Below are positions 1,366 through 13,442 of a DNA stretch of 34,274 nucleotides, in pieces. Position 1 is the first letter of the stretch. Each line of letters opens with the position of its first letter. Made by a program: the position numbers and the translations under genes. The notes under the pieces were generated by a model, which worked only from the letters and a program-made list of their open reading frames with translations, had not been told where the DNA came from and did not search any database. The stretch is from a virus, in IMG/VR virus record IMGVR_UViG_3300017917_003636, positions 1 to 34,274 of that record. One strand, written 5' to 3'.

Positions 1366-1451
1366 GCTGCTGTGGTGAAATAGGTAGACACGAGGGACTT
1401 AAAATCCCTTGGCCAGTGATGGTCGTGCCGGTTCGATTCCGGCCAGCAGTA
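1366..1451 (+). tRNA. tRNA-Leu (UAA)
   Basis: Acceptor GCTGCTG pairs with CAGCAGT (one G-U). The anticodon stem AGGGA/TCCCT holds loop CTTAAAA, giving anticodon UAA. It has a long variable arm, as expected for leucine. No encoded CCA. Confidence 0.95.
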
Positions 1452-1458
1452 CAAAAAC

Positions 1459-1474
1459 GTTCTTTAACATATTG
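1459..1474 (+). promoter_or_regulatory. boxA-like element before tRNA-Ser
   Basis: GTTCTTTAACATATTG; its last G is the first base of tRNA-Ser(UGA). It matches the core of the ribosomal boxA antitermination site (E. coli GCTCTTTAACA) and recurs in the RNA island. Confidence 0.6.
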
Positions 1475-1561
1475 GAAGGGTGGCAGAGTTGGTCTATTGC
1501 ACCGGTCTTGAAAACCGGCGATCGTGAAAGCGATCCGTGAGTTCGAATCTCACCCCTTCCG
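1474..1561 (+). tRNA. tRNA-Ser (UGA)
   Basis: Acceptor GGAAGGG/CCCTTCC with discriminator G. Stem CCGGT/ACCGG with loop CTTGAAA gives anticodon UGA. The long variable arm (GATCG/CGATC) is typical of serine. Confidence 0.95.
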
Positions 1562-1569
1562 CTTGATCT

Positions 1570-1643
1570 GTCTTCGTAGCTCAGCTGGATAGAGCAACGC
1601 ACTTCTAATGCGTAGGTCATGTGTTCGAATCACATCGAGGATA
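1570..1643 (+). tRNA. tRNA-Arg (UCU)
   Basis: Acceptor GTCTTCG/CGAGGAT (two wobbles), stem ACGCA/TGCGT with loop CTTCTAA, giving anticodon UCU. The following three bases happen to read CCA; most other tRNAs here are not followed by CCA. Confidence 0.93.
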
Positions 1644-1647
1644 CCAC

Positions 1648-1721
1648 GGTCCCTTAGCTCAGTAGGTTAGAGCAACTGACTCATAATCAGTAGGTCCACG
1701 GTTCGAGCCCGTGAGGGACCA
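1648..1721 (+). tRNA. tRNA-Met (CAU), elongator type
   Basis: Acceptor GGTCCCT/AGGGACC, stem ACTGA/TCAGT with loop CTCATAA, giving anticodon CAU. It lacks the GGG/CCC initiator stem. It could in principle be Ile2 (lysidine-modified), but a separate Ile(UAU) gene makes that unnecessary. Confidence 0.9.
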
Positions 1722-1740
1722 CAAGAATTTTGATTTTAGC

Positions 1741-1772
1741 TTGGTTGCTTAAAAGAAAGTTCTTATATTTAC
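1741..1772 (+). promoter_or_regulatory. Promoter P3 (TTGG ... TTATATTTAC)
   Basis: TTGG at 1741-1744 and TTATATTTAC at 1763-1772, with the same 20-base register and the same preceding GTTC as other copies. It lies 26 bases before the ATG of the small lipoprotein gene. Confidence 0.72.
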
Positions 1773-1798
1773 AACAAATAAAAAACAATAATAATAAA

Positions 1799-1966
1799 AT
1801 GAAAAAAGTATTTTTCGCCCTTGTAGCAATTGCTACCCTTGCTTCATGTTCTAACAACACAGAAGCCACTTCAACGGATTCAACATCATGTGATTCATGT
1901 GCTGTTGATTCAACGGGAATTGATTCTCTTCAGGTTCTTGAAGATTCAATTTACCAAGCCAAGTAA
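1799..1966 (+). CDS. Small lipoprotein inside the tRNA array
   Basis: A 55-residue protein starting MKKVFFALVAIATLASC, a clear signal peptide with lipobox L-A-S-C (Cys at residue 17). The mature part is Thr/Ser/Asp-rich with a CDSC pair. The start at 1799 is chosen over the upstream ATG at 1730 because promoter P3 ends at 1772, and the signal peptide begins exactly at 1799 after an A-rich leader. It lies between tRNA-Met and tRNA-Thr. The product should be anchored in the inner or outer membrane of the host. Superinfection exclusion is a common role for small phage lipoproteins, but nothing here proves it. Confidence 0.78.
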   Translation: MKKVFFALVAIATLASCSNNTEATSTDSTSCDSCAVDSTGIDSLQVLEDSIYQAK

Positions 1967-1978
1967 TTGGCTTAAATT

Positions 1979-2051
1979 GCCCGCGTAGCTCAACTGGCAG
2001 AGCATCGCATTTGTAATGCGAGGGTTGTAGGTTCGATTCCTATCGCTGGCT
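1979..2051 (+). tRNA. tRNA-Thr (UGU)
   Basis: Acceptor GCCCGCG/CGCTGGC has one C-T mismatch (1982/2047). Stem TCGCA/TGCGA with loop TTTGTAA gives anticodon UGU. The T-arm is intact. Confidence 0.9.
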
Positions 2052-2062
2052 CAAAAGAAAAC

Positions 2063-2078
2063 GTTCTTTAACATATTG
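2063..2078 (+). promoter_or_regulatory. boxA-like element before tRNA-Gly
   Basis: GTTCTTTAACATATTG, identical to the copy before tRNA-Ser, again with its last G being the first base of the tRNA. Confidence 0.6.
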
Positions 2079-2149
2079 CAGGTATCGTATAACGGTTATT
2101 ACTCTAGCCTTCCAAGCCTGAGATCTCGGTTCGATTCCGGGTACCTGCT
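2078..2149 (+). tRNA. tRNA-Gly (UCC)
   Basis: Acceptor GCAGGTA/TACCTGC and T-stem CTCGG/CCGGG. Loop CTTCCAA gives anticodon UCC. The anticodon stem (CTAGC/GCCTG) contains two mispairs, which is unusual for a working tRNA. Confidence 0.85.
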
Positions 2150-2185
2150 CAAAAGAAAAGCTTTTTAAGAAATTTTTAAAATAGC

Positions 2186-2217
2186 TTGGATGTTTGAAAT
2201 TCTGTTCGTATATTTAT
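2186..2217 (+). promoter_or_regulatory. Promoter P4 before the large ncRNA
   Basis: TTGG at 2186-2189 and GTATATTTAT at 2208-2217 with the conserved 20-base register and the GTTC extension. The next element downstream is a boxA-like site at 2242 and then the large structured RNA, so this promoter probably drives that RNA. Confidence 0.72.
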
Positions 2218-2241
2218 ATATCAGAAAATTAATAACAAAAC

Positions 2242-2257
2242 GTTCTTTAAATTATTG
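2242..2257 (+). promoter_or_regulatory. boxA-like element before the large ncRNA
   Basis: GTTCTTTAAATTATTG, one of five related copies. By analogy with the tRNA copies, the RNA body would begin at about 2257. Confidence 0.5.
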
Positions 2258-3112
2258 AAATATCCATTCAACGAAAGTTGATAAAAGATATTGGCAGTCT
2301 ATGGTCGTTAAATAAACCTCGAAAGGGGGATAAAGTGAATTGCAAGACAAAGCAGTTTGCGGTTTATAGCAGCTTCGGTTGTTATGAGCTCGAGTAGACA
2401 AGCGGGATATCATTTAGTCTGAAGTAGTGAGGGCAACGCCGTAATGAAATGATTGAATGACTTAGCGATGTGGGTCGTTAGGTTGAGTCCGGAAGGACAA
2501 TAAGAATAACTCGTAGAATATTTGCAAGAAGTATTTCCATCCAGATTTACAATTGCGTTATTCAATATCAAAGGGTACTTAAAGCCGAAAGGCATGTAGA
2601 TGTACAGGTGGTGCTGTTATTTACCTTGTATTTGATTCTACCAAGGGTCGAAACATGAAGTAATCTTGAAGTATGGAGGTAGGGATATCTCAGAGAGTAG
2701 TTTAGTATTTTTTCGCTCAAAAGGTGGGAAAGCTAAAAGGCAGGCCACTACTTTCAATCATCCACGTCACAAACCTTTGCTATTTGGAATGCAAAATTCA
2801 AAACTATCAAAGCAAAAGTGCATGCCAGTCACGGACGAAAGATGCCTACATAGTAATGAGTTGTTCATTGCCACTAGAGGTCGCAAGCCAATAGTGATTC
2901 GTTTGAAAAGTCTATAGCACCGCAAGTGTTAATCAGCTCGGCAGAGTTGAGTAGAAGTACTAGAACGAGAGTAGTCCAATACAAGTGACTTAAAGAGTGG
3001 TTCACTTAAATAACCGGCATTGTTAGGATACAAACCAAAAGTTTGTGGATAAGAAGGGAATAAATAATCCGACAAAAGACCTAACACATAAACGTATAAT
3101 CTCAGCGTTTTA
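2257..3112 (+). ncRNA. Large structured RNA, GOLLD/ROOL-like candidate
   Basis: An ~850-base stretch without a convincing gene but full of stable hairpins, many closed by GNRA or UUCG tetraloops. Seen by eye: CAAC-GAAA-GTTG (2269-2280) inside an AATATC/GATATT stem (2259-2264/2287-2292); CCTC-GAAA-GGGG (2317-2328); an 8-bp stem with UUCG loop (2366-2385); ATCATTT/AAATGAT (2409-2415/2447-2453); GTCC-GGAA-GGAC (2487-2498); GCC-GAAA-GGC (2584-2593); and TGTTAGG/CCTAACA (3021-3027/3080-3086) enclosing ACAAAC/GTTTGT (3030-3046). It has its own promoter and boxA and lies within phage tRNA genes. GOLLD and ROOL are giant ornate RNAs (several hundred bases) known from phages and often next to tRNAs; size and context fit, but I cannot align a covariance model. 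The 3' end is approximate. Confidence 0.7.
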
Positions 3113-3176
3113 AATATTTACGCAAGTTGGACATTATTAGAGGATCGTTTCCTCTATTGCGACAAAGATAAAATTT

Positions 3177-3188
3177 AATATATTTATT
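3177..3188 (+). promoter_or_regulatory. AT-rich promoter-like motif before a short ORF
   Basis: AATATATTTATT, similar to the recurrent AATATTTATAA motif found before structural gene blocks. A TTG about 20 bases upstream (3157-3159) also gives partial fit to the TTGG-type promoter. It precedes the short ORF at 3215. Confidence 0.35.
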
Positions 3189-3214
3189 AGAAACATTTTT
3201 TAAATTCAATAACA

Positions 3215-3301
3215 ATGAAACAACATAGTATATATAATCTTCAGATGAACATTTGGTTTGCGCCGGTGAAGGAAGATTCCGTGTTGGGCTTTGTTGAATG
3301 A
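3215..3301 (+). CDS. Possible 28-residue micropeptide
   Basis: An ATG after an A-rich leader opens a 28-codon frame (MKQHSIYNLQ ... DSVLGFVE) that ends in TGA. A promoter-like AT motif lies 26 bases upstream and a strong terminator 30 bases downstream, so a short transcript unit of about 170 bases is likely. Whether the unit makes the peptide or acts as an RNA is undecided. I do not recognise the peptide; it is neither a signal peptide nor a membrane helix. Confidence 0.35.
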   Translation: MKQHSIYNLQMNIWFAPVKEDSVLGFVE

Positions 3302-3330
3302 TGTGAATAAATTAAAACACTATAAAACGA

Positions 3331-3362
3331 AGCCCGGCCCTCAGAAGCCGGGTTTTTTTTTT
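3331..3362 (+). terminator. Intrinsic terminator
   Basis: Stem CCCGGC (3333-3338) pairs perfectly with GCCGGG (3347-3352) around an 8-base loop, followed by ten T. It is the strongest terminator in the window. It ends the 3177-3330 unit and lies directly before a boxA-like site. Confidence 0.9.
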
Positions 3363-3364
3363 GA

Positions 3365-3380
3365 GTTCTTTGACATATTG
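3365..3380 (+). promoter_or_regulatory. boxA-like element before tRNA-Phe
   Basis: GTTCTTTGACATATTG, two bases after the terminator T-run and ten bases before tRNA-Phe. As I recall, the GTTCTTTGA form is the one found in Bacteroidetes rRNA leaders. Confidence 0.58.
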
Positions 3381-3389
3381 GAAAAAAAT

Positions 3390-3462
3390 GGACTGGTAGC
3401 TCAGTTGGTAGAGCGTTGGCCTGAAGAGCCAAGCGTCGGGGGTTCGAATCCCTCCCAGTCCA
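3390..3462 (+). tRNA. tRNA-Phe (GAA)
   Basis: Acceptor GGACTGG/CCAGTCC, stem TTGGC/GCCAA with loop CTGAAGA, anticodon GAA. All arms pair well. Confidence 0.96.
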
Positions 3463-3493
3463 CAAATTAATACAAAAACGTATTGATTTTTAA

Positions 3494-3566
3494 CTAGGTG
3501 TAGATCAGTTGGTAGATCGGGGCATTTGGGATGCTCAGGCCGCAGGTTCGAGTCCTGCCACTTAGA
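3494..3566 (+). tRNA. tRNA-Pro (UGG)
   Basis: Acceptor CTAGGTG/CACTTAG, D-stem GATC/GATC, stem GGGCA/TGCTC with loop TTTGGGA, anticodon UGG. The C1-G72 start is typical of bacterial tRNA-Pro. Confidence 0.94.
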
Positions 3567-3572
3567 CAAAAC

Positions 3573-3648
3573 GTCTTCGTAGCTCAGTTGGTTTTAGAGC
3601 ACCTCACTTTTAATGAGGGAGTCACAGGTTCGAGTCCTGTCGGGGACA
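3573..3648 (+). tRNA. tRNA-Lys (UUU)
   Basis: Acceptor GTCTTCG/CGGGGAC, stem CCTCA/TGAGG with loop CTTTTAA, anticodon UUU. The D-loop is slightly long. Confidence 0.95.
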
Positions 3649-3746
3649 CAAAGGAAGCACAAGAGAGTCCTTAATGCGCAAATAATATCCTTGTATAGTT
3701 TTTATGTTGGCTCTGATTCTATTTAAAAATGCTATTGCCTTCGACA

Positions 3747-3819
3747 CTTTCCTTAGCTCAGTTGGTAGAGCGCTTCTTTTACATGGAAGATGTCGTTGGT
3801 TCGAATCCAGCAGGAAAGA
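3747..3819 (+). tRNA. tRNA-Val (UAC)
   Basis: Acceptor CTTTCCT/AGGAAAG (C1-G72 is unusual for valine), stem CTTCT/GGAAG with loop TTTACAT, anticodon UAC. I saw no gene in the ~100 bases between it and tRNA-Lys. Confidence 0.93.
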
Positions 3820-3825
3820 CAAAAC

Positions 3826-3907
3826 GCCTGTATCGCATAGCGGCAATTGCTGGGGACTGTAAATCCCCTCCCTTACGGGTTCGGAGGTTCGAGTCCTTCT
3901 GCAGGCA
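3826..3907 (+). tRNA. tRNA-Tyr (GUA)
   Basis: Acceptor GCCTGTA/TGCAGGC, stem GGGGA/TCCCC with loop CTGTAAA, anticodon GUA. It has the long variable arm of bacterial tRNA-Tyr. Confidence 0.95.
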
Positions 3908-3914
3908 CAAATAT

Positions 3915-3988
3915 AGAGTCGTAGCTCAGTTGGTTAGAGCGACTGCCTGATACGCAGTAGGCCATAGGTTCGAGTCCTATCTTCTCTA
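3915..3988 (+). tRNA. tRNA-Ile (GAU), imperfect acceptor
   Basis: Stem ACTGC/GCAGT with loop CTGATAC gives anticodon GAU; the D- and T-arms are intact. The acceptor AGAGTCG/CTTCTCT has two adjacent mispairs (3919/3983 and 3920/3982), so function is uncertain. Confidence 0.88.
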
Positions 3989-3994
3989 CTTAAT

Positions 3995-4068
3995 AGTGAT
4001 ATAGCTCAATTGGTTAGAGTAGATGCCTTATACGCATCCGGTTACGAGTTCGAGTCTCGTTATCACTA
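3995..4068 (+). tRNA. tRNA-Ile (UAU)
   Basis: Acceptor AGTGATA/TATCACT, stem GATGC/GCATC with loop CTTATAC, anticodon UAU. It reads AUA directly, without the lysidine-modified CAU anticodon most bacteria use. Confidence 0.93.
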
Positions 4069-4073
4069 CAGTT

Positions 4074-4157
4074 GGAAAGTAAAACAGTCAGGGCACTGTC
4101 ACCGCCTGCTAAGCGAGTGGTACTTTAGGGTATGAATTTCGATTATTCTGCTTTCCG
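4074..4157 (+). tRNA. tRNA-Ser (GCU)
   Basis: Acceptor GGAAAGT/GCTTTCC with discriminator G, loop CTGCTAA (anticodon GCU) and a long variable arm. The D-arm (ACAGT/ACTGT with a 6-base loop) and the lower anticodon stem are atypical, and one T-stem pair is mismatched. Confidence 0.85.
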
Positions 4158-4190
4158 CTAAAGAAAAAGTATTTATTAACAAAACAAGTC

Positions 4191-4643
4191 ATGGAATTCA
4201 AAACACTACGAGACAGAAAAAAGATCGATTTAGTAGAATATGTGAGGACATATTTGAACACTCACCCAGAAGTTGAGATCCTTATTGGATGTGACTCACA
4301 AAACCATGCTGATTCTACAGTATACGCAACAGTAGTGGCTTTGTATTTCCCTCAAAATGGAGCTCATTTATTGTTCTGCAAAGAGGTTACACCTATTGAA
4401 AGAACAAGACAAGTAAGATTAATGAATGAAGTTTGGAAATCTGTTGATATTGCAGAGCAATTAAGATTAGCAGGTTTACCTAGAGCAAAATATATTGATG
4501 TTGACCTCAACCCAGATAAAAGATATAAATCAAACGAAGTGCTAAGATCAGCAGTAGGTTTAGTTGAAGGTATGGGTTATAATGTGAGATATAAAACATT
4601 AGGTGCGTTAGTAACACATGCTGCTGATGCATTAGTGAAATAA
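4191..4643 (+). CDS. YkuK/DUF458-like RNase H-fold protein
   Basis: A 150-residue soluble protein. Residues 30-51 (ILIGCDSQNH then a Val/Ala-rich strand) and the acidic strand YIDVDLNPDK (101-110) match the RNase H-like fold of the YkuK/DUF458 family, with Asp35, Asp103/Asp105 and Asp146 as candidate metal ligands. A C-terminal VTHAADALVK segment fits the last helix. The family is predicted to be nucleic-acid cleaving; its substrate is not firmly known. It is embedded in the tRNA array, between tRNA-Ser(GCU) and tRNA-Arg(ACG), separated by 33 and 5 bases. That placement makes a role in tRNA or RNA handling attractive, but this is inference. An AT-rich GTATTTATTAAC motif lies just upstream. 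Confidence 0.8.
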   Translation: MEFKTLRDRKKIDLVEYVRTYLNTHPEVEILIGCDSQNHADSTVYATVVALYFPQNGAHLLFCKEVTPIERTRQVRLMNEVWKSVDIAEQLRLAGLPRAKYIDVDLNPDKRYKSNEVLRSAVGLVEGMGYNVRYKTLGALVTHAADALVK

Positions 4644-4648
4644 TCACT

Positions 4649-4720
4649 GGTTCCTTAGTTCAACGGATAGAACAATTGACTACGGATCAATAGATAGGAG
4701 TTCGAATCTCTTAGGAACTA
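4649..4720 (+). tRNA. tRNA-Arg (ACG)
   Basis: Acceptor GGTTCCT/AGGAACT, stem ATTGA/TCAAT with loop CTACGGA, anticodon ACG. Reading of CGC/CGA would depend on the host A-to-I enzyme TadA. Confidence 0.94.
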
Positions 4721-4735
4721 CAATCCGATGTCGGT

Positions 4736-4751
4736 CCCGAGCTAGGTCGGG
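4736..4751 (+). other. Hairpin between tRNAs
   Basis: CCCGA (4736-4740) pairs with TCGGG (4747-4751) around a 6-base loop, with no T-run, between tRNA-Arg and tRNA-Trp. It may be a processing signal; nothing more can be said. Confidence 0.4.
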
Positions 4752-4758
4752 TATTACT

Positions 4759-4829
4759 GCGTCTATGGTGAAATGGTATCATCACGGTCTCCAAAACCGT
4801 TGTTCAGGGTTCGAATCCTTGTGGGCGTG
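4759..4829 (+). tRNA. tRNA-Trp (CCA)
   Basis: Acceptor GCGTCTA/TGGGCGT (three wobbles) with discriminator G, stem ACGGT/ACCGT with loop CTCCAAA, anticodon CCA. Confidence 0.93.
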
Positions 4830-4835
4830 CTAAAT

Positions 4836-4910
4836 GGTGGTTATAGCTCAGTAGGTTAGAGCAAAGGGTTGTGGTCCCTTGTGCCGTGAGTTCGATTCTC
4901 ACTAATCACC
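4836..4910 (+). tRNA. tRNA-His (GUG)
   Basis: An extra G(-1) at 4836 faces C73 at 4910, the identity mark of tRNA-His. Acceptor GTGGTTA/TAATCAC, stem AAGGG/CCCTT with loop TTGTGGT, anticodon GUG. Confidence 0.95.
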
Positions 4911-4946
4911 CAAATAAAAATTTTCCAAAAAATTTCCGCGCAAGGA

Positions 4947-4979
4947 TTTGGAGAAGCGAGATCAGGTTCGTACATTTAC
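4947..4979 (+). promoter_or_regulatory. Promoter P5 (TTTGG ... GTACATTTAC)
   Basis: TTTGG at 4947-4951 and GTACATTTAC at 4970-4979 with the conserved 20-base register; the flanks (GAGAAGCGA) also match P1. It drives the second half of the tRNA array, through a boxA-like site at 5002. Confidence 0.75.
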
Positions 4980-5001
4980 GACATAAGATTAAGAGCAAGA
5001 A

Positions 5002-5017
5002 GTTCATTGACGTATTG
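5002..5017 (+). promoter_or_regulatory. boxA-like element before tRNA-Leu (UAG)
   Basis: GTTCATTGACGTATTG, a two-base variant of the other copies. It lies 23 bases after promoter P5 and 13 bases before the tRNA. Confidence 0.5.
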
Positions 5018-5029
5018 GAAAATTAAAAT

Positions 5030-5110
5030 GCCTTGGTGGTGGAATCGGTAGACACAGCGGTCTTAGAAGCCGTGGCTTTACGCTTGAGAGTTCGAGTCTC
5101 TCCCGAGGTA
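5030..5110 (+). tRNA. tRNA-Leu (UAG)
   Basis: Acceptor GCCTTGG/CCGAGGT, stem GCGGT/GCCGT with loop CTTAGAA, anticodon UAG. It is a type II tRNA, with a shorter variable arm than the first tRNA-Leu. Confidence 0.93.
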
Positions 5111-5115
5111 CAAAT

Positions 5116-5225
5116 AGTCAGGTGGCGCAATGGTAAACGCTAACGTCTCGTGTAAGAATATCAGGTATGCATGGTCAGCCGAAAGGTAAAGATATTCAAT
5201 ACAGGTTCGATTCCTGTCCTGACTA
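5116..5225 (+). tRNA. Atypical 110-nt tRNA-like gene, isotype unresolved
   Basis: The two ends are a perfect tRNA: acceptor AGTCAGG/CCTGACT with A73, D-stem GCG/CGC with a GGTAAA loop, and T-arm ACAGG-TTCGATT-CCTGT. Between the D- and T-arms there is no normal anticodon stem. Instead there is a 7-bp hairpin, GAATATC (5156-5162) with GATATTC (5191-5197), with an inner GCC-GAAA-GGT hairpin. It may be a tRNA with an insertion or giant variable arm, a tRNA-like regulatory RNA, or a degenerate gene. Cys is the only amino acid without a normal tRNA here, but I cannot place a GCA anticodon in a proper loop. Confidence 0.6.
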
Positions 5226-5360
5226 CAGAAGGTGGCAACCCCGAAACATAGAAAGACAAAGTTGCAGTGTTGACCTCAAGTCCCAGTAGGGAGGTACACT
5301 TAAATAAAACATGTCACGAGGAAAGTGTCGACTTAAGAAACGGCAAGTACTAACGAAGGG
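5226..5360 (+). ncRNA. Possible small structured RNA
   Basis: This spacer between the tRNA-like gene and tRNA-Asn has nested pairing: GCAAC/GTTGC (5235-5239/5261-5265) and a compound hairpin GTGT/ACAC, ACCT/AGGT and CCC/GGG (5267-5299). CTTAA/TTAAG (5299-5303/5333-5337) encloses CAC/GTG; since both use C5299 these are partly alternative. No reading frame or promoter is evident. It may be part of one longer RNA with the preceding tRNA-like gene. Confidence 0.4.
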
Positions 5361-5365
5361 ATCAC

Positions 5366-5437
5366 GTCTTGGTAGCTCAGAGGCAGAGCAAGCGGCTGTT
5401 AACCGCTGGGTCGTAGGTTCGAATCCTTCCCAGGACG
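5366..5437 (+). tRNA. tRNA-Asn (GUU)
   Basis: Acceptor GTCTTGG/CCAGGAC, stem AGCGG/CCGCT with loop CTGTTAA, anticodon GUU; discriminator G as usual for asparagine. Confidence 0.95.
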
Positions 5438-5444
5438 CTAAAAT

Positions 5445-5516
5445 GGCCCGTTCGTCTAACGGTTAGGACGTTAGGTTTTCAACCTAGAAACACGAGTTCG
5501 ATTCTCGTACGGGCTA
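5445..5516 (+). tRNA. tRNA-Glu (UUC)
   Basis: Acceptor GGCCCGT/ACGGGCT, stem TTAGG/CCTAG with loop TTTTCAA, anticodon UUC. Confidence 0.95.
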
Positions 5517-5524
5517 CAATAAAT

Positions 5525-5599
5525 TGCGGGGTGGAGGAGATGGTTTCACTTACTGGGCTCATAACCCAGAGATCGCCGGTTCGAGTCCGGCCCCCGCAA
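5525..5599 (+). tRNA. tRNA-fMet (CAU), initiator
   Basis: The anticodon stem CTGGG/CCCAG has the three G-C pairs of initiator tRNAs; loop CTCATAA gives CAU. Acceptor TGCGGGG/CCCCGCA has a U1-A72 pair, where E. coli has a C1/A72 mismatch; either is a weak end. Confidence 0.93.
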
Positions 5600-5605
5600 C
5601 TATAT

Positions 5606-5676
5606 TTTCCTCTCGTCTAATGGCAGGACAAGTGGTTTTGGACCACTTAATCGAGGTTCGAATCCTTGGGGGAAAA
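5606..5676 (+). tRNA. tRNA-Gln (UUG)
   Basis: Acceptor TTTCCTC/GGGGAAA with the weak U1-A72 end typical of tRNA-Gln, stem AGTGG/CCACT with loop TTTTGGA, anticodon UUG. Confidence 0.94.
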
Positions 5677-5681
5677 CAATT

Positions 5682-5754
5682 GGGGTTGTAGCTCAACTGG
5701 CTGAGCGCTACCCTTGCAAGGTAGAGGATGAGGGTTCGAATCCCTTCTGCTCCA
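5682..5754 (+). tRNA. tRNA-Ala (UGC)
   Basis: Loop CTTGCAA in stem CTACC/GGTAG gives UGC. The alanine identity pair G3-U70 is present (5684/5751). One acceptor mismatch, T-T, at 5687/5748. Confidence 0.93.
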
Positions 5755-5755
5755 C

Positions 5756-5870
5756 AAAACATAATATGGGTAGGTAGGATTGTTAGAAGTCGTTGCCCAA
5801 TAACGGTCTAACAAGGTAACGCGCTCTGTTGTAAAATTGGGTAAGCGCTATTAAAGTAGTATTATGTTTT
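5756..5870 (+). ncRNA. Compact RNA with predicted kissing loop
   Basis: The spacer between tRNA-Ala and tRNA-Asp folds on paper into a closed three-way design. A perfect 11-bp closing stem joins 5756-5766 to 5860-5870 (AAAACATAATA/TATTATGTTTT). Inside, TTGTTAGA/TCTAACAA (5780-5787/5807-5814) carries an inner CGTT/AACG hairpin with loop GCCCAAT (5795-5801). A second hairpin GCGCT/AGCGC (5821-5825/5844-5848) has a loop containing ATTGGGT; that segment (5836-5842) can pair with all seven bases of the first loop (six Watson-Crick, one G-U), a kissing loop. There is no reading frame. I do not recognise a known family. It is likely co-transcribed with the tRNAs. Confidence 0.7.
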
Positions 5871-5874
5871 ATAT

Positions 5875-5946
5875 GGTCCATTGGTGTAATGGCTAACATG
5901 CTTGACTGTCTATCAGGCGCTACGAGTTCGATTCTCGTATGGACCG
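5875..5946 (+). tRNA. tRNA-Asp (GUC)
   Basis: Acceptor GGTCCAT/ATGGACC with discriminator G, stem CTTGA/TCAGG with loop CTGTCTA, anticodon GUC. Last tRNA of the island; a short T-run follows two bases later. Confidence 0.95.
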
Positions 5947-6026
5947 CTTTTTTAATTTTCCAATATGTATTGTTGATAAAAGTTTTTTTAAGTGTTGTTG
6001 CGTTCTTAAACATCTAACAACAAAAA

Positions 6027-7922
6027 ATGAAAAAACTACTATTAACTCTTTTGGTCAGCATTCTGACCTTTTCTGCATTTTCGCAGACAACTCCTCCAGC
6101 TCCTGGTACTGGAAAATGGCTTATTGTTGATACTAACTATACAGTTGGTGCTTCAAATGTTGGTGTAACTAAAGCAGATCTTTACTATCGAAACACAACA
6201 AACCAAAAAATTACGGGTATGCAATTCCGTGTTTGGTATGATAAAGATGCCTTTAATGGTGCTGCTCCTACTGTTGCTTTAAAATATCCACCTGCTAACC
6301 AATACATGCAGTATGTTACTAATACCACAGAAGGTAATATTACTGTTACATTAGTTTATACAGGTACAAATGCTGTTTTCTCTTATTTAGATACTGCTGC
6401 TGTTGAAGTTACATTAACTCACGCAGCTCCTGCTATTTGGAATACTTTAGATAGTATAAAAACAATGAAAATTACAGGTACTACAGTATTTAATAACTTA
6501 GCATCTACTAATTTAGGTAATGATACTACTTTAACAATGTATTCTTATGGTGGTCATTTCTTACAACAAACCTTAACTTTTAAAGGAACATTTTTAACTA
6601 CTACTGGGGCTGGGGCTAAAAATTTAACATTATCTTTAGAAAAGAAACCTAAAACAGGTTCTACTTGGACTCAAGTAAATACTTATACAACTAACCTTCA
6701 AGGTAAATTCCAATTTACAGAAACTTTAGATACAACTTATTGGGATACTCGTATTGCTATTCAAGGTGATACAATGGGTGTTGGTAATATATTGTCTACA
6801 GCGGACGCTCAAAAGATTAACCAATCAGTCCTGGCTCAATACACTCCCGTTGGATTCGACTTTTATACAATGGATATAAACAACTCTAATAGCATTACAA
6901 TAACCGATGCTTATGGAGTATTTAGTAAATTAGCAGGTAACTTCCCTTCATGGCCTAACAATACACCTAATTTATTATTTTTTACCCCTACAGAATATAA
7001 TGCTATTAATACAGCTACAACCAGTTTACAAACTACTTATCCAGGGGTAACTAACTTTACTCATTATATTAATGGTGGTGTTGATTCAGTAACTTATTAT
7101 ATAGCTGTTAAAGGTGATGCTAATGCTACTGGTTATCATATGGCTCGTTTAACACCTATTCCAATTATTGTTCCTGAAAAAGCTCCTCAGTATGTGATTG
7201 ATAATACTGTTAAATACGATAATGTAGTTGATAGTATGGAAATTAATATGCCTAAAATATCAGTTAATGAAGGTAATTTAGTTAATATTCCTGTTAAAGT
7301 ATTAACAAACGGTAAATCATTAAGTGCTTTACAACTTTATTTAAAATATGACGATGATTTACTTGAATTTAAAAAAGTAATTAACAGTGAAAAAGCAATG
7401 AAATGGATGACTTATGTAAATCCTTCAAATGGAGTTGTTGCTTGGGGAGGATTTGATATAACTAATTCAAACTTTTTTAATGATGGAGAACAAGCATTTA
7501 CTTTACAATTTATAGCCAAACAACCTCAAGATCAATGGACTACAGCTGCTTTATGGACAAGTGATAAGTATGTTGGTGACCAATCCTCTAGGGATCTTAA
7601 TATCACCCCAGCAATGGGAATTGTTGAAGTAAAAAAAGTAATTTTCAAACCAGAAGTAAATAGTTCAATTTTAGATCTTAAAATAGCTCCTAATCCAAAC
7701 GATGGTAATTATTTAGTATCATTTAATATAATTGAAGATGGTATAACAGAAGTTTCACTTTTTGATATGCAAGGTCGTAAATTAGGAACTTTAGTAAATG
7801 AATTAATGCCTGCTGGTGAATATTTATACTCAGCTAAATTTTTAGTTAAAGGTGGTATATATTATACAACTGTTACCAATAATGGAAAATCAGCAACTTA
7901 TAAAACTGTAATTTTAAAATAA
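6027..7922 (+). CDS. Secreted cohesin/dockerin-like protein with T9SS sorting domain
   Basis: A 631-residue exported protein. Residues 1-20 are a signal peptide (MKKLLLTLLVSILTFSAFSQ). Residues about 30-150 form a beta domain with cohesin-like strands; 175-250 look like a prealbumin/CarboxypepD-regulatory-type beta domain. Residues 276-304 (FDFYTMDINNSNSITITDAY ...) are a dockerin-like calcium-binding repeat. Residues 404-540 are a second, clearer cohesin-like domain (NEGNLVNIPVKV ... LQLYLKYDDDLLEF). Residues 543-631 match the T9SS type A C-terminal sorting domain (IAPNPNDGNYLVSF, VSLFDMQGRKLG, GIYYTTV, final KTVILK). T9SS carries such proteins across the outer membrane of Bacteroidetes, so the phage protein should end on the host surface. 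A paralogous middle region occurs in the product at 10410. Leader is A-rich; a boxA-like GTTCTTAAACAT lies at 6002. Exact ligand unknown. Confidence 0.82.
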   Translation: MKKLLLTLLVSILTFSAFSQTTPPAPGTGKWLIVDTNYTVGASNVGVTKADLYYRNTTNQKITGMQFRVWYDKDAFNGAAPTVALKYPPANQYMQYVTNTTEGNITVTLVYTGTNAVFSYLDTAAVEVTLTHAAPAIWNTLDSIKTMKITGTTVFNNLASTNLGNDTTLTMYSYGGHFLQQTLTFKGTFLTTTGAGAKNLTLSLEKKPKTGSTWTQVNTYTTNLQGKFQFTETLDTTYWDTRIAIQGDTMGVGNILSTADAQKINQSVLAQYTPVGFDFYTMDINNSNSITITDAYGVFSKLAGNFPSWPNNTPNLLFFTPTEYNAINTATTSLQTTYPGVTNFTHYINGGVDSVTYYIAVKGDANATGYHMARLTPIPIIVPEKAPQYVIDNTVKYDNVVDSMEINMPKISVNEGNLVNIPVKVLTNGKSLSALQLYLKYDDDLLEFKKVINSEKAMKWMTYVNPSNGVVAWGGFDITNSNFFNDGEQAFTLQFIAKQPQDQWTTAALWTSDKYVGDQSSRDLNITPAMGIVEVKKVIFKPEVNSSILDLKIAPNPNDGNYLVSFNIIEDGITEVSLFDMQGRKLGTLVNELMPAGEYLYSAKFLVKGGIYYTTVTNNGKSATYKTVILK

Positions 7923-7923
7923 A

Positions 7924-8259
7924 ATGAGCGAAGAAACACACAACGACGGTACATGGTCAGGTCTTAAAAAGACTTTAATAGGAACTTTATCAACAGCTGT
8001 ATTGGCTGGAGGTACTTGGTTTACAACAACTTTATTTGGAGGTCACGAAGAAGAATCTAAAGAAGAAACCAAAACAGAACAAGCAGCTCCGGCTTCATCA
8101 GCAGCACCTGTTGTAATTAATGTTCAACAAAACCAAGAAAATAAACAACAAGTTAAACAAGGTGGTGGAACTGTTGTTAAAGAAAGAATAATTGAAAAAC
8201 CAGTTGAAAAGCCAACTCCTGCTAAGGCTGATCCTGTAAATGACGAGGACCCATGGTAA
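7924..8259 (+). CDS. Small single-helix membrane protein
   Basis: A 111-residue protein with one hydrophobic segment (about residues 18-40: LIGTLSTAVLAGGTWFTTTL) followed by a charged, Glu/Lys/Gln/Pro-rich tail (EEESKEETKTEQAAP, later VEKPTPAKADP). There is no cleavable signal peptide, so it is likely anchored in the inner membrane with the tail extending into the periplasm or cytoplasm. The start lies one base after the upstream stop, and its last codons overlap the start of the CsgG-like gene by 7 bases, suggesting coupled translation. Family unknown; a role as scaffold or envelope-spanning partner for the neighbouring lipoprotein is inference. Confidence 0.72.
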   Translation: MSEETHNDGTWSGLKKTLIGTLSTAVLAGGTWFTTTLFGGHEEESKEETKTEQAAPASSAAPVVINVQQNQENKQQVKQGGGTVVKERIIEKPVEKPTPAKADPVNDEDPW

Positions 8260-8942
8260 GAAAAATAATTTGGTTGTTGTTAATACCTTTATTAACAGCC
8301 TGTGGTTCTATGAAGACTACAACTGAAGATGATGTTATTGAAACTAAAAGTATTTCAACTGTTTCTAACTACACAGATAGCTTAAAATATGCTGTTCAAG
8401 TAGTAAACGTTGATATGACTAAAGTTCTAACCCTTTACCCAGATTTACAAGAAAAAGGTGTTGGTTTAGGATTTGCTGAGTCAGTACTTGATTATTTGGA
8501 TGAAACTGGACGATTTATATTTACTGAAGAAAAATCTGAAATCAAAGAAAGAATGGTTACTCAATTTAAAGCTTCTAAAAAAGGAATCTTTGAAGAGCCC
8601 ATTGATGGAAAAGGTAAGATTAAAGCTGCTCGTTACTTTGTTTATGTTACTGTGGCCGATTTTGCTGTTGATGAAGATGAAACTATTGAAAAAGGCAAAG
8701 CGAAAGTTGTTGTAACAACATTCATTCGCCTTCAAGTAAGATTTGTAGACGCTGAAACAGGACAAATTTATATAGGATCAGGAGAAGGTGAAGCCACTAA
8801 AACCGGTGAAGCTTTCTTAAAATCTTTAGATGGAATGAAATTCTCTCAAAGTACTGTTGGTAAGGCGACTCGTAAATCTTTAGAAACTGCTACAACTAAA
8901 GTAATCGAAAACCTTATTAAAAACGGTGTATTTAAAAATTAA
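8253..8942 (+). CDS. CsgG-like outer-membrane lipoprotein
   Basis: A 229-residue protein with a lipoprotein signal (MVRKIIWLLLIPLLTAC, Cys17). The mature part has the layout of the CsgG family: a helix with GLGFAESVLDYLDETGRFIF (about 71-90), a helix with KSEIKERMVTQF, a strand with KAARYFVYVTVADF (125-137), then the paired strands VVTTFIRLQVRFVDAETGQI (153-172) and SGEGEA. CsgG forms the outer-membrane pore of curli secretion. Homologues in phages have been noted before, from memory in marine T4-like and SAR11 phages. The loop expected to form the transmembrane hairpins (about 139-157) is short, so it may be a CsgG-domain lipoprotein without full pore strands. It overlaps the genes on both sides. 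Confidence 0.75.
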   Translation: MVRKIIWLLLIPLLTACGSMKTTTEDDVIETKSISTVSNYTDSLKYAVQVVNVDMTKVLTLYPDLQEKGVGLGFAESVLDYLDETGRFIFTEEKSEIKERMVTQFKASKKGIFEEPIDGKGKIKAARYFVYVTVADFAVDEDETIEKGKAKVVVTTFIRLQVRFVDAETGQIYIGSGEGEATKTGEAFLKSLDGMKFSQSTVGKATRKSLETATTKVIENLIKNGVFKN

Positions 8943-10413
8943 ATTATTAATTTTATGTCTTATTGGAGGACTGTCTCTTTACGGGCAGTCCTTCATGTAC
9001 TCATATACAGATCCTTGTACTCATGAGATGAAGACTATTGTTTATGATATGAGTGCTCCTATAGTAGTTTCATATTATGGACAAACTAGAGCATTTACAT
9101 ATAATGAAATGCAAAGTGGTGTGTTTGATAGTTGGTTATCAACAGTTTATTCTCAATATACTACTCAACCGTGTCAGGGAGTATTAACAACAATAACAAC
9201 CACATCATCTACAACATTAACTACAAATGTTATAAACACGGTTTTAAACCTTAGTACGATAACTTCTATTACTTCCATGGGAGGTATCGGAAATAATATT
9301 GGAAGCACAGTAAACACAGGTACAAACGTTGAAGAAAAAAAAGGAGGAAAAGATGAGAAAAATGGAAAAAATAATAACAATAACTCTACCAATCCTGGTA
9401 ATAATAATGTTGTTTCTAACCCAACACCCAATAGTAGCTCTAATGGTAACACCACTGGTACTAATGCTGGGGGCAATGTTTCTGGGGGGACTACTGGAGG
9501 AGGAGAACAAACAAATCCAACAACAACTTCAGGAGAAGGACAACCAACTACAAACCCAGAAACCGGAAACCCTACAACAAATCCAGAACAGACTGGAGGA
9601 TCTGGAGGAAATATAGGTACAAGTAGTAATCCTAATGGAGGAAGTAATGGTAGTACTCAAAGTAGTTCAAATGAAACAACACCACCCTCACAAAGTGAAA
9701 TAGATAAAACTAAAGCAGATCAACAAAAAGCTACTTCTAGTAATGCTGCTAAGACAACCTCTAAAGCTAAAAATGAAACTAATAAACCCGCTATTTTATT
9801 AACAGGAGATATAGTAGGTTTACAAAAAACAACAGATAGTACTCAGGATGCTAGAGGAACAATTTCTTATACTAGAGTAAAAGGTGACGGAACAGCATCT
9901 TTAGGAGTATCAGCTGATTATATGGTTAATGCTAAGATTGGAAATATTACTGTAATGAAATCTTGGATAGCAACTAAAAATAATGGTGATAAAAGTATTA
10001 ATTTAGTATCATCAGGATTTTCATTTATGCCAGGATCTATTACTAATACTTCAATGTTTATTAGAATTAATAGTCTTAAAAAATTTACTGCACTTTACGG
10101 TGTTGCTGGTTCTTATGGACAGTTGTATAGAGAAGAAATAATAACAGGTTTAGGTATTGCTGGGTTTATGTATAAAGGGAAAATAGCTAAAAAAGTAGAT
10201 GCTACTATTATTTTAGCAGGTGTTTATGCTCCTTATACAAAATATTATACTTCAACTTGGTTTACAAATATGCCACTTGTGGTTCCTTTTATTAATTTAA
10301 ATTATAAAATGACTAAAACATTTGGAATGGGTTTAACAGGAGGTACTACTTATATGGCTGGTCAAAATGTTATTAATTATCAAGTATTATTAGGAGCAAA
10401 GCTTATATTATGA
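8926..10413 (+). CDS. Exported protein with low-complexity linker and C-terminal barrel-like domain
   Basis: A 495-residue protein. It begins with GTG at 8926, overlapping the upstream gene by 17 bases; the frame gives a good signal peptide (KIKLLILCLIGGLSLYG then Q). Residues 21-110 are a small domain with two cysteines. Residues about 135-285 are a long Asn/Thr/Ser/Gly-rich linker. Residues 290-495 have alternating beta strands ending in aromatic or hydrophobic residues (GVSADYMVNAKIG, YKMTKTFGMGLTGG, final LLGAKLIL), as expected of an outer-membrane beta-barrel. The position directly after a CsgG-like lipoprotein suggests both act at the outer membrane. I cannot name the family. The GTG start is unusual here; other genes use ATG. 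Confidence 0.75.
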   Translation: MYLKIKLLILCLIGGLSLYGQSFMYSYTDPCTHEMKTIVYDMSAPIVVSYYGQTRAFTYNEMQSGVFDSWLSTVYSQYTTQPCQGVLTTITTTSSTTLTTNVINTVLNLSTITSITSMGGIGNNIGSTVNTGTNVEEKKGGKDEKNGKNNNNNSTNPGNNNVVSNPTPNSSSNGNTTGTNAGGNVSGGTTGGGEQTNPTTTSGEGQPTTNPETGNPTTNPEQTGGSGGNIGTSSNPNGGSNGSTQSSSNETTPPSQSEIDKTKADQQKATSSNAAKTTSKAKNETNKPAILLTGDIVGLQKTTDSTQDARGTISYTRVKGDGTASLGVSADYMVNAKIGNITVMKSWIATKNNGDKSINLVSSGFSFMPGSITNTSMFIRINSLKKFTALYGVAGSYGQLYREEIITGLGIAGFMYKGKIAKKVDATIILAGVYAPYTKYYTSTWFTNMPLVVPFINLNYKMTKTFGMGLTGGTTYMAGQNVINYQVLLGAKLIL

Positions 10414-11486
10414 GATTATTAATTTGGATTATTTTTTTATTTTTTAGTATTCAACTAAATGCTCAATCTCCTTTATGTTCTAGTTATCCTACTAGTTTCT
10501 GCTGTGAATATGTTTCTAGTGTAACTATTAATGGACAAACATATAACGGGAGCAATGGATATGCTGCTACTTCAGGAGGTACTGGTCCTAATGGATATTA
10601 TGATTATACAGGAGGAACTGCTGTACCTACTATTACAGCCGGGCAAAATATTTCAATTTCATATACTGCTCAAACAAATGGGAATTATATGGAATATTTT
10701 AAATTATGGGTTGATTTTAATGGTAATGGAGTTTTAAGTGATGCTGGGGAACAGGTTTATGCTTATAATGTGTCTTGGACTGGTACTAAAACAGTTACAT
10801 CAACATTTCAAGTACCCACTACTGTATTTAATGGGCAGGTTTACATGCGTTTTATGATGGTATATGCTAATGTTCCTGCTTTATGTGGTAGTTATGCTTA
10901 TGGAAATACTTTTGATTTTAAAACAACTATTACAGGTGCTCAAGATCCTTTTTCATATTCAGGATATGTTTATGGAGCTGAGGGAACAGGGATACCTAAT
11001 ATTCCTGTTCAACTTTATAGTAAATTAAAATCTTCATCTACTTATACTTACTTAAGTACTCATAATACTGATGCTAATGGAAAATATTCTTTAACATCTT
11101 CTAGAGATGCTAATACTTATGACTTTCAATTAGTATTTGGTACTTTAACTATTGGTTCTCCTTCTACAAGTGATGCTCAAACTTTTAATCAAAAGGTTCT
11201 CTATCAATCTTTCAATTCAAAAGATTATTATAGGATGGATGTTAATATAGATGGTACTTTAACTATAACAGATGTTTATTTGGTATTTATGAAAATAATA
11301 GGTAGAGCCTGGAAGCTGGGAGTACCTAATTATCGAATATTTACCCCAACAGAATATAATACTATAAATTCATCAACATCAAACCTAAGAACCACATACC
11401 CAGGACAACAAAGTATTACTATAAATGGGTTAACCAATCAAGGTAATACAAATTTTTATTTAATACGAACCGGATTTAACAATTAA
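10410..11486 (+). CDS. Secreted GEVED- and dockerin-like protein
   Basis: A 358-residue exported protein. Residues 1-19 are a signal peptide (ending QLNAQ). Residues 45-185 match the GEVED domain of Bacteroidetes surface proteins (YFKLWVDFNGNGVLSDAGEQ at about 95, then a strand with YMRFMMVY). Residues 184-245 are a CarboxypepD-regulatory-type beta domain (DANGKYSL). Residues 272-300 are a dockerin-like repeat (YYRMDVNIDGTLTITDVYLV). The C terminus shares FTPTEYN and TTYPG with the protein at 6027, so the two arose from one ancestor. Unlike that protein, this one ends without a T9SS sorting domain or cohesin. Its start overlaps the upstream stop (ATGA). An inferred job is to bind the cohesin part of the 6027 protein on the host surface. 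Confidence 0.8.
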   Translation: MRLLIWIIFLFFSIQLNAQSPLCSSYPTSFCCEYVSSVTINGQTYNGSNGYAATSGGTGPNGYYDYTGGTAVPTITAGQNISISYTAQTNGNYMEYFKLWVDFNGNGVLSDAGEQVYAYNVSWTGTKTVTSTFQVPTTVFNGQVYMRFMMVYANVPALCGSYAYGNTFDFKTTITGAQDPFSYSGYVYGAEGTGIPNIPVQLYSKLKSSSTYTYLSTHNTDANGKYSLTSSRDANTYDFQLVFGTLTIGSPSTSDAQTFNQKVLYQSFNSKDYYRMDVNIDGTLTITDVYLVFMKIIGRAWKLGVPNYRIFTPTEYNTINSSTSNLRTTYPGQQSITINGLTNQGNTNFYLIRTGFNN

Positions 11487-11488
11487 TT

Positions 11489-11905
11489 ATGCTAAACATT
11501 TTACTACCTCTTTTTCTTACATTTACTAATCCTCAAGTAGATACAGTTTATAATACTTCTAAAATTCAAAAAATAGGTGAACGTGATGTTACCTTTGGTG
11601 TTAAAGAAACTGTTGAGGAAATTGCCTTAGACAAAAAAGTTGAAGGTCACATTACTGTGGAAATATCTAATATTGAATCACCCCAACAAATGCTTAATAT
11701 TGTTGGTATGCAATGGTTAAAAAAGGATTATATAGTTGATGTTAAAGTTACTATTGATGGAAAAATATATGAAGGGAAAGCAATGAGAAAAACATTTTTA
11801 TTTGCTGCCTTTTTAAATGTAGAAGGTGGAGAAGTACCTTTAAATACCAAATCATTTTCTAAAGCTTTACAAAAATCCTTAGAGGATGCCTTTAATAATC
11901 TTTAA
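11489..11905 (+). CDS. Small exported protein, possible CsgE-like
   Basis: A 138-residue protein with a short hydrophobic start (MLNILLPLFLTFT) that could be a signal peptide. The mature part has an amphipathic strand pattern (EGHITVEISNIE, DYIVDVKVTIDGKIYEG) and a helical end (KALQKSLEDAF). The pattern ITVEI ... W ... DVKVTIDG ... RKTFLFA faintly resembles CsgE, a periplasmic partner of CsgG, but the similarity is weak and by eye only. It is the last gene of the secreted module, two bases after the upstream stop. A promoter-like AATATTTATAA and the holin gene follow. Confidence 0.6.
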   Translation: MLNILLPLFLTFTNPQVDTVYNTSKIQKIGERDVTFGVKETVEEIALDKKVEGHITVEISNIESPQQMLNIVGMQWLKKDYIVDVKVTIDGKIYEGKAMRKTFLFAAFLNVEGGEVPLNTKSFSKALQKSLEDAFNNL

Positions 11906-11915
11906 ATATTTATAA
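11904..11915 (+). promoter_or_regulatory. Late-promoter-like motif before lysis genes
   Basis: AAATATTTATAA overlaps the end of the preceding gene and lies 56 bases before the holin ATG. It is one of several near-identical copies before late gene blocks. Confidence 0.4.
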
Positions 11916-11971
11916 TAAAGTTTCCCACAATCAGTTGTGTTTTGTGAAAATAAAAAACAAAACAAACAAAA

Positions 11972-12241
11972 ATGAAAAATTTCTTTAAAAATTTATTTGA
12001 CGACAACAACACTATTAATGAAAAGGCAGTTGTTGGATTTATTGCTTTTGTAATGCTTTGCATTTCATTAGCTGTTGACCTTATTACGGGATACTTCGGT
12101 AATCCGTTATTGATTAACAAATTTATCTTTGATGGATTTATGGTCCTAGTATTAGGTTCATTTGGTATTGCATCTGTGGATAAATGGATGAACAAAAAAG
12201 ACAAACACGAAGAAGATAAAGATAACGAAAACGCAGAATAA
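11972..12241 (+). CDS. Holin
   Basis: An 89-residue protein with two hydrophobic helices (about 17-40, VVGFIAFVMLCISLAVDLI, and 50-70, IFDGFMVLVLGSFGIASV) and a highly charged C-terminal tail (KKDKHEEDKDNENAE). Size, two-helix layout and charged tail are those of class II or phage-lambda-type small holins. It is followed by the endolysin gene with a TAATG overlap, which supports the call. It would make lesions in the inner membrane at a set time and release the endolysin. The start follows an A-rich leader (AAACAAAAATG). Confidence 0.8.
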   Translation: MKNFFKNLFDDNNTINEKAVVGFIAFVMLCISLAVDLITGYFGNPLLINKFIFDGFMVLVLGSFGIASVDKWMNKKDKHEEDKDNENAE

Positions 12242-12852
12242 TGAGTTTAAAAAGTTTACAAGAAAGAGTAGGAGTAGCAGCTGATGGTGCTTTTGGTCCT
12301 GGTACTATGAAAGCCGCTATGGTAATGTTAAAATTAACCCCTGTTAGAGCAGCTCATTTCTTTGCTCAAACATCACATGAAACAGGTGGTTTTAAAGCAT
12401 TTTCAGAAAACCTAAATTATTCAGCACAAGGTTTACAAGGTATTTTTGGGAAATATTTCCCAGGTACTTTAGAAGAATCTTATGCTCGTCAACCTGAAAA
12501 GATTGCTAATAGGGTTTATGCTGATAGAATGGGTAATGGTAATGAAGCTTCTGGTGATGGATGGAAATATAGAGGACGTGGTGCTCTTCAATTAACAGGA
12601 AAAGCTAACTATGAAGCATTTGCTAAATATTTAGGTACTAATGAGGTAATGGAAAATCCTGATTTAGTAGCTACCAAGTATTCATTCGATTCAGCTATGT
12701 TTTTCTTTGAAAAAAACAAATTATGGACAATTTGTGATAAAGGAATTAACGATGCTGCTATTTTAGAATTAACTAAAAGAATCAATGGTGGTACTCATGG
12801 TTTAGAAGATAGAAAATTAAAAACTTATAAATACTACGAATACGTAAAATAA
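12241..12852 (+). CDS. GH19-type endolysin
   Basis: A 203-residue peptidoglycan hydrolase. Residues 6-26 (LQERVGVAADGAFGPGTM) look like a short peptidoglycan-binding repeat. The catalytic domain has the GH19/chitinase-like lysozyme pattern: Glu47 in SHETGGF, SENLNYSAQGL (55-65), then YRGRGALQLTGKANYEAFAK. The enzyme would cut the glycan strands of the host wall. No signal peptide is present, so it needs the holin made from the gene just upstream, whose stop overlaps its start (TAATG). Length is normal for a phage GH19 endolysin. Specificity for muramidase or chitinase activity cannot be judged from sequence; phage context favours peptidoglycan. Confidence 0.9.
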   Translation: MSLKSLQERVGVAADGAFGPGTMKAAMVMLKLTPVRAAHFFAQTSHETGGFKAFSENLNYSAQGLQGIFGKYFPGTLEESYARQPEKIANRVYADRMGNGNEASGDGWKYRGRGALQLTGKANYEAFAKYLGTNEVMENPDLVATKYSFDSAMFFFEKNKLWTICDKGINDAAILELTKRINGGTHGLEDRKLKTYKYYEYVK

Positions 12853-13442
12853 TGAATTATACAAGAGAACAAATAGAAGCCGCTGTAAAAGCTAAAGGAT
12901 ATGCTTGGTTTGAAGGTGCGAAAGATTTTGATGTTAATATTGTTGGGGTTAGAAACTCTGCAACTGGTCAAGTAGTTACTAATGTTTTTGATGATACAAT
13001 GACTGTATCTTACAAAGAAGGTGGTGAATGGAAATTTCATCAATGGCCTTGTACTACAGACCCAGGTAAAAAAGGAGTAAAAGAATATCATAACGCAGCA
13101 GGCGTTGCTCGTTTAGTTGAAGGTCAATACAGAGGTTCACATACCCTAGGTTTACACCAAGGAAAATATGAAGCTTTAAAACAAGCAAAACCAGTTAAAG
13201 TTTATCGTGATGCAAATCGTGATATGACTTATGATGAAACTAAAATTGCTGAGGGTGTATTTGGTATTAATATCCACAAAGCAGGTGCAGATTCTACTTA
13301 TGTAGAAAACTGGTCTGAAGGATGCCAGGTATTCAAAAAAGCAACTGATTTTGAAGCATTTATGGCTATTGCTCGTAAAGCAGCAGCTATTCATGGTAAA
13401 TCATTTACTTATACACTGATAGAATCAGCAGATATAAAATAA
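12852..13442 (+). CDS. YkuD-like protein of the lysis cassette
   Basis: A 196-residue soluble protein starting at a TAATG overlap with the endolysin. Residues 138-161 (GINIHKAG ... NWSEGCQVF) carry a His142-x12-SEGC158 pattern close to the L,D-transpeptidase (YkuD) signature H-x-S/T-HGC; the residue before Gly157 is Glu rather than His. Proteins with SEGC next to phage endolysins are common in my memory and often unassigned. It could cut or re-link peptidoglycan peptides, or have lost activity and bind wall material. There is no signal peptide or membrane helix. It is the last gene before the terminator at 13470. Confidence 0.75.
   Translation: MNYTREQIEAAVKAKGYAWFEGAKDFDVNIVGVRNSATGQVVTNVFDDTMTVSYKEGGEWKFHQWPCTTDPGKKGVKEYHNAAGVARLVEGQYRGSHTLGLHQGKYEALKQAKPVKVYRDANRDMTYDETKIAEGVFGINIHKAGADSTYVENWSEGCQVFKKATDFEAFMAIARKAAAIHGKSFTYTLIESADIK

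Follow-up and report, generated by a model that had tools for sequence, protein, structure and literature searches.

A candidate small noncoding RNA cassette of phage tRNA arrays, with covarying kissing loops

Introduction

Structured noncoding RNAs of phage and prophage tRNA arrays include GOLLD (RF02032), a very large RNA whose Rfam model has 416 nt, many of whose members exceed 800 nt, and which assembles as a 14-mer into a natural RNA nanocage (PMC12286853). Phage T4 encodes two short, stable noncoding RNAs beside its tRNA genes, RNAs C and D, also known as species 1 and species 2 RNA, with lengths of 139 and 119 nt, and they are the best precedent for small stable RNAs arising from a phage tRNA cluster. 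Freshwater-1 (RF02979) is a small structured RNA present in tRNA spacers of relatives of the phage considered here, where it lies within a larger spacer that has its own closing stem. The phi29 pRNA (RF00044) has paired ends and two hairpins with complementary loops, and is of about the same size as the element described below.

This element is a 115-nt sequence between two tRNA genes of a phage contig, for which an initial annotation had proposed four pairings, including a kissing loop, and membership of no known family. An evolutionarily conserved RNA structure between phage tRNA genes (12 compensated pairs, 13 copies) was found, and the element appears to represent a new family of a known kind, the structured noncoding RNAs of phage tRNA arrays. 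It is unusual in that its kissing contact covaries and in that it behaves as a cassette.

The locus and its closest relatives

The window, which is the whole 34,274-base phage contig analysed here (IMG/VR viral record IMGVR_UViG_3300017917_003636), encodes 23 tRNAs called by ARAGORN, all on the plus strand and spanning 1366-5947, and its array also holds a GOLLD RNA (2693-3108) and a tRNA-like RNA (5116-5225), both found with Rfam. The baseplate wedge protein is 46% identical to its counterpart in Flavobacterium phage immuto, a resemblance that makes a Bacteroidetes host likely. The element (5756-5870, plus strand, as are all features below unless stated) lies between tRNA-Ala(TGC) at 5682-5755 and tRNA-Asp(GTC) at 5875-5947, both of which are recognised by ARAGORN and by the Rfam tRNA model. 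It was placed correctly in this gap by the initial annotation, which had also described it as leaving no spare sequence, whereas 4 nt (ATAT) remain unused.

In Rfam 15, no family matches the element at gathering score and none matches positions 5740-5890 on either strand at E<=10, in agreement with the earlier assignment to no known family. No paper describing the element was found in the literature searched, and an earlier description outside Rfam is possible. A tRNA or tRNA-like identity, with T arm and acceptor stem, finds no ARAGORN or Rfam tRNA call on the element. A coding role was ruled out, as no open stretch exceeds 22 codons in any frame of any of the 13 family members.

Each of the described RNAs differs from the element. 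GOLLD, far larger, shares neither sequence nor fold with it, and RF02032 matches the window at 2693-3108 only. Freshwater-1 has a different sequence, and the RF02979 model, which matches two related loci (L005 8989-9050 and L007 4899-4960), does not match the element. A T arm like that of a tRNA is present in T4 RNA C, and both C and D, when folded, are without the plan of closing stem and kissing loops, so that homology to either was ruled out on fold. The loops of phi29 pRNA pair between molecules and the RNA has no link to tRNA genes; its covariance model gives no match to the element at E<=10.

Structure of the element in the window

All four pairings proposed by the initial annotation were found in the window: the closing stem, P2 with its inner hairpin, P3 and the loop complementarity. 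The 5' strand of the closing stem, AAAACATAATAT (5756-5767), pairs with the 3' strand at 5859-5870 through 11 Watson-Crick pairs (5756-5766/5860-5870) and a twelfth pair, U.G 5767/5859, and is paired in 100% of the alignment cells of the family. It is followed by an unpaired segment, GGGUAGGUAGGA (5768-5779), which is the same in 13/13 homologues and is presumed to be a partner-binding or core segment. The P2 hairpin (5780-5814) consists of an 8-bp stem (5780-5787/5807-5814), 100% paired across homologues, and an inner 4-bp stem CGTT/AACG (5791-5794/5802-5805), 90% paired and without covariation. An invariant linker GGUAA (5815-5819) leads from P2 to the P3 hairpin (5821-5848), in which GCGCT (5821-5825) pairs with AGCGC (5844-5848) around an 18-nt loop, with 96% of cells paired. 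A further unpaired segment, AUUAAAGUA (5850-5858), precedes the 3' strand of the closing stem and, like the linker, is identical in all 13 homologues.

The loop of P2, GCCCAAT at 5795-5801, can form six Watson-Crick pairs and a G.U with ATTGGGT at 5836-5842 in the loop of P3. The seven-base complementarity claimed earlier is thus present in the window, but only a 5-bp core is kept across homologues, in which CCCAA (5796-5800) is partnered by UUGGG (5837-5841) and the edges vary.

The expectation that these pairings would be unlikely by chance was borne out for the terminal stem, since at least 11 Watson-Crick pairs arose in 2/200,000 mononucleotide shuffles with 18 end registers allowed. The RNAfold z-score of the element is a modest -2.45, with 4/200 shuffles folding equally well, and in the nested minimum-energy fold of the window part of the P3 region is paired otherwise than in the initial annotation. 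Because the folding energy of the single sequence is only moderately unusual and P3 is drawn differently, comparative evidence was needed, and that evidence favours P3 as it was first drawn over the minimum-energy alternative.

Homologues and covariation

A protein encoded within the array (4191-4643) served as query and led to 30 related loci, to which pattern scans added more, and homologues of the element were identified among them with two covariance models (R1 and R3). The family comprises 13 copies, the window and 12 others (L002, L003, L004, L031, L033, L036, L037, L045, L047, L067, L068 and L069), of which 10 are distinct and all lie in viral contigs of IMG/VR. Every copy is full length, is situated in a tRNA array and has the same sense as the surrounding tRNAs. 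With 13 copies found in IMG/VR, the family is rare; with the element as query, blastn over 50,697 phage genomes returned chance-level matches only, and one exact pattern scanned over 84,980 bacterial and archaeal genomes had no match. Three candidates from the first pattern scan (L032, L034 and L035) were rejected as chance matches without a covariance-model match, as were L065 and L066, and a marginal match in Cellulophaga phage phi14:2, scoring 21 bits, lacking P3 and with no tRNA close by, was not counted.

In a plain MAFFT alignment (A5), built without structure information, standard pairs occupy 98.2% of 328 pair cells, the kissing helix included, and sliding the partner by 1-3 columns lowers pairing to 36-47%. 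Double compensatory changes affect 12/33 pairs, compared with a mean of 2.8 in shuffles, none of which (0/500) reached as high a count; the proposal that the element is a novel small phage RNA, structured and with a kissing loop, is upheld by this result. Such changes occur in six of the 12 pairs of the closing stem across the 10 distinct homologues, including L069, whose stem reads AATAATATCTA/TAGATATTATT as against AAAACATAATA/TATTATGTTTT and is still perfectly paired. In P2 they occur in 2/7 pairs (GC to UA and AU to UA), in P3 in 2/5, with single-side changes in one pair, and in the kissing helix in 2/5 (CG to UA and CG to GC). The compensatory changes that the initial annotation had suggested seeking in homologous phage tRNA arrays are therefore present, those of the kissing loops among them.

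Ten copies have CCCAA/UUGGG as their kissing core, L067 and L068 have CCUAA/UUAGG, and L069 has CUGAA/UUCAG; changes in the second strand match those in the first, and all five pairs form in every copy. Conservation covers five of the seven loop pairs, G.U 5795/5842 and U-A 5801/5836 being variable, and the first loop reads, for example, CCCCAAAT or ACCCAAAA in other copies. A change in one loop that is not matched in the other, which had been named as the observation that would speak against the contact, is confined to the ends of the kissing helix (5795 and an inserted A) and is absent from the core. As there are only 10 distinct sequences, among which L069 and the L067/L068 pair supply much of the covariation, these counts represent few independent events, though these fall in four helices at once.

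Invariant columns make up 37/51 of the unpaired positions versus 34/66 of the paired ones, which indicates that single strands are constrained in sequence and stems in pairing, a combination that is the signature of a functional RNA and not of a spacer or a DNA repeat. The comparison of 13 sequences, not the statistics of any single sequence, is the decisive support for the structure.

Cassette behaviour

The element is present in at least three tRNA contexts. It occupies the Ala/Asp slot in the window, L002, L003, L004, L031, L045 and L047, and also in L067 and L068, where the tRNA ahead of it is Ala-like and has no ARAGORN call; it occupies the Asp/Glu slot in L033, L036 and L037, and in L069 it lies behind a Thr tRNA. 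Between L033 and the window the element is 99% identical, whereas the flanking 80-85 nt are only 59% and 62% identical, and in this comparison the boundaries of the unit coincide with the closing stem. No homologue of the window baseplate protein was detected in the 252-kb L033 contig, and 8 of 25 window proteins match this phage over the 140 kb compared. Since all eight derive from 6027-13442, adjoining the array, exchange of the array neighbourhood between distant phages is plausible.

The Ala/Asp slot has other occupants as well, namely an unrelated 68-nt closing-stem unit in L036 (11157-11224) and an unrelated 220-nt spacer in L013 (8966-9185). It is reduced to 7 nt (AAAATTT) in L005 and to 11 nt in L014, from which it is evident that absence of the element is tolerated. 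One unit is thus found in several slots and in phages distant from each other, and a given slot holds different units; the element is a mobile structured-RNA cassette.

Closed spacers as a wider class

Strong end-to-end complementarity (duplex <= -10 kcal/mol) is found in 30% of 160 distinct spacers of 45-300 nt, versus 4.7% of mismatched ends, and with one representative per spacer family the proportions at -9 are 41% and 9% (median p about 3e-7). These closing stems begin at most a few nt away from the tRNA ends. In the same arrays, 102/288 distinct spacers have a length below 15 nt. Apart from T-loop strings resembling those of tRNAs, AT-rich strings and a boxA-like core, no 9-mer recurs across many spacer families.

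A second unnamed spacer RNA of about 131 nt, here called family A, occurs in five tRNA contexts (L002:3641-3771, L003:9713-9840, L005:9567-9697, L007:5227-5356, L008:1071-1208, L017:9496-9623 and, on the minus strand, L045:4529-4659). Compensated pairs number 16/34, versus 6.3 in shuffles, and include 8 of the 11 pairs of its closing stem; a GGGUU/AACCC pseudoknot is probable. Family A has no Rfam match. Its model also matches Cellulophaga phage phi14:2 (L062 1461-1575, E 2e-5), and Vibrio phages contain its loop CACCGAAAAAGGGUUUGUAGUAGGU as well. Freshwater-1 is the core of larger closing-stem spacers in L005 (8889-9089) and L007 (4803-4984), closed for example by ATGAAAC/GTTTCAT, and as it sits within a larger closed spacer the curated RF02979 family may be truncated. 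Thus the element is one among several RNA cassettes that these arrays carry.

Proposed function and alternative explanations

The element is probably a self-contained small RNA gene without a coding function, about 115 nt long, that phages keep as a cassette among their tRNA genes; its RNA would be cut out of the tRNA precursor and act in trans. It would be transcribed within a long tRNA precursor and its ends would be set by tRNA maturation, with RNase P cutting the 5' end of the downstream tRNA and 3' processing freeing the upstream one. The closing stem could then seal the excised RNA against exonucleases, and the kissing helix could lock a compact fold that exposes GGGUAGGUAGGA, GGUAA and AUUAAAGUA, the invariant unpaired segments, to a protein or RNA partner in the infected cell. 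The single argument for a role in trans is that these unpaired bases are invariant. Pairing of a GGGUAGG segment with the anticodon stem of tRNA-Ala was considered and rejected, as this stem differs in L045 and the segment is unchanged.

A purely cis-acting role is rather unlikely. The element would here be an insulator that keeps neighbouring tRNAs from misfolding together, or a spacer that presents the junctions to nucleases and is then degraded, for which the frequency of closing stems in the longer array spacers, and their start so close to the tRNA ends, provide some support. The many very short gaps and the 7-nt slot of L005 imply that no insulator is needed there, and neither the covarying kissing loop nor the 37 invariant unpaired columns is required for such a role. 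The invariance of the unpaired segments and the ability of the same slot to hold only 7 nt also favour a self-contained RNA over the processing guide suggested in the initial annotation; a decoy, likewise named there, is a conceivable role. Movement between sites and between phages at up to 99% identity, together with perfect terminal inverted repeats, recalls a MITE-like mobile DNA element whose 12-bp repeats are transposase sites and whose RNA fold is incidental, but DNA ends do not explain the covariation of P2, P3 and the kissing helix, the L069 repeat differs and stays perfectly paired, no target-site duplication is visible, and all copies lie between tRNAs in sense, all of which makes this explanation very improbable. 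That the pairings arose by chance in an ordinary spacer, as the single-sequence z-score might allow, is practically negligible and is excluded by the covariation on 13 homologues and by the terminal-stem control.

The kissing contact admits further interpretations. Complementary loops could pair between molecules, as in phi29 pRNA, giving a ring or larger assembly, an idea consistent with the shared plan of paired ends and two hairpins within about 115 nt, and with the presence of the nanocage-forming GOLLD in the same array. Intramolecular and intermolecular pairing are inseparable by sequence, the single-stranded linkers of 6-12 nt allow intramolecular kissing, and pRNA gave no match at the threshold above, so that oligomerisation is considered improbable. 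Slightly less credit is given to a new self-cleaving ribozyme, or to another catalytic RNA with a role in processing the tRNA precursor: the size, the compact pseudoknotted fold, the abundance of invariant unpaired bases and the place at a tRNA junction would fit, but no Rfam ribozyme family matches, no known catalytic core is present and most tRNA junctions of the array are without such an element. The loops might instead pair only in an alternative state of an RNA switch, P2 and P3 giving way to a long CCCAA/UUGGG helix without any kissing complex, and RNAfold does prefer for L002 and L004 a nested fold in which CCCCA/UUGGG replaces both hairpins. As covariation is seen in P2, in P3 and in the loop helix, and no base is shared among them, a single structure can hold all three, and a switch is highly improbable. 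A broader and doubtful conjecture is that the element belongs to a new functional class of compact kissing-loop RNAs and is catalytic, cleaving itself in the precursor, or is assembled through its loops, as one of a set of interchangeable cassettes that large phages store in array gaps in an integron-like manner.

With this element, the poorly understood RNAs of phage tRNA arrays gain a family that is supported by covariation, the contact between its two loops included. As further structured units without a name lie in the spacers, tRNA arrays of large phages appear to be an untapped source of structured RNAs, and if such units are indeed excised and act in trans, these arrays do more than supply tRNAs.

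Other features of the array

The GOLLD RNA of the window scores 276.8 bits and is preceded by a long noncoding stretch from about 2240. The tRNA-like RNA at 5116-5225 scores 40.6 bits with the Rfam tRNA model, has no ARAGORN call, and combines a normal acceptor and T arm with an oversized middle; similar sequences are present in L009, L010, L011 and L016, and it may be a tRNA with an intron or a noncoding RNA that resembles a tRNA. The boxA-like strings GTTCTTTAACATATTG, GTTCTTTGACATATTGG and GTTCATTGACGTATTGG recur inside the tRNA array of the window (1453-1473, 2053-2077, 2240-2260, 3362-3382 and 5000-5022) and in its relatives, which suggests rRNA-type antitermination of a long tRNA transcript.
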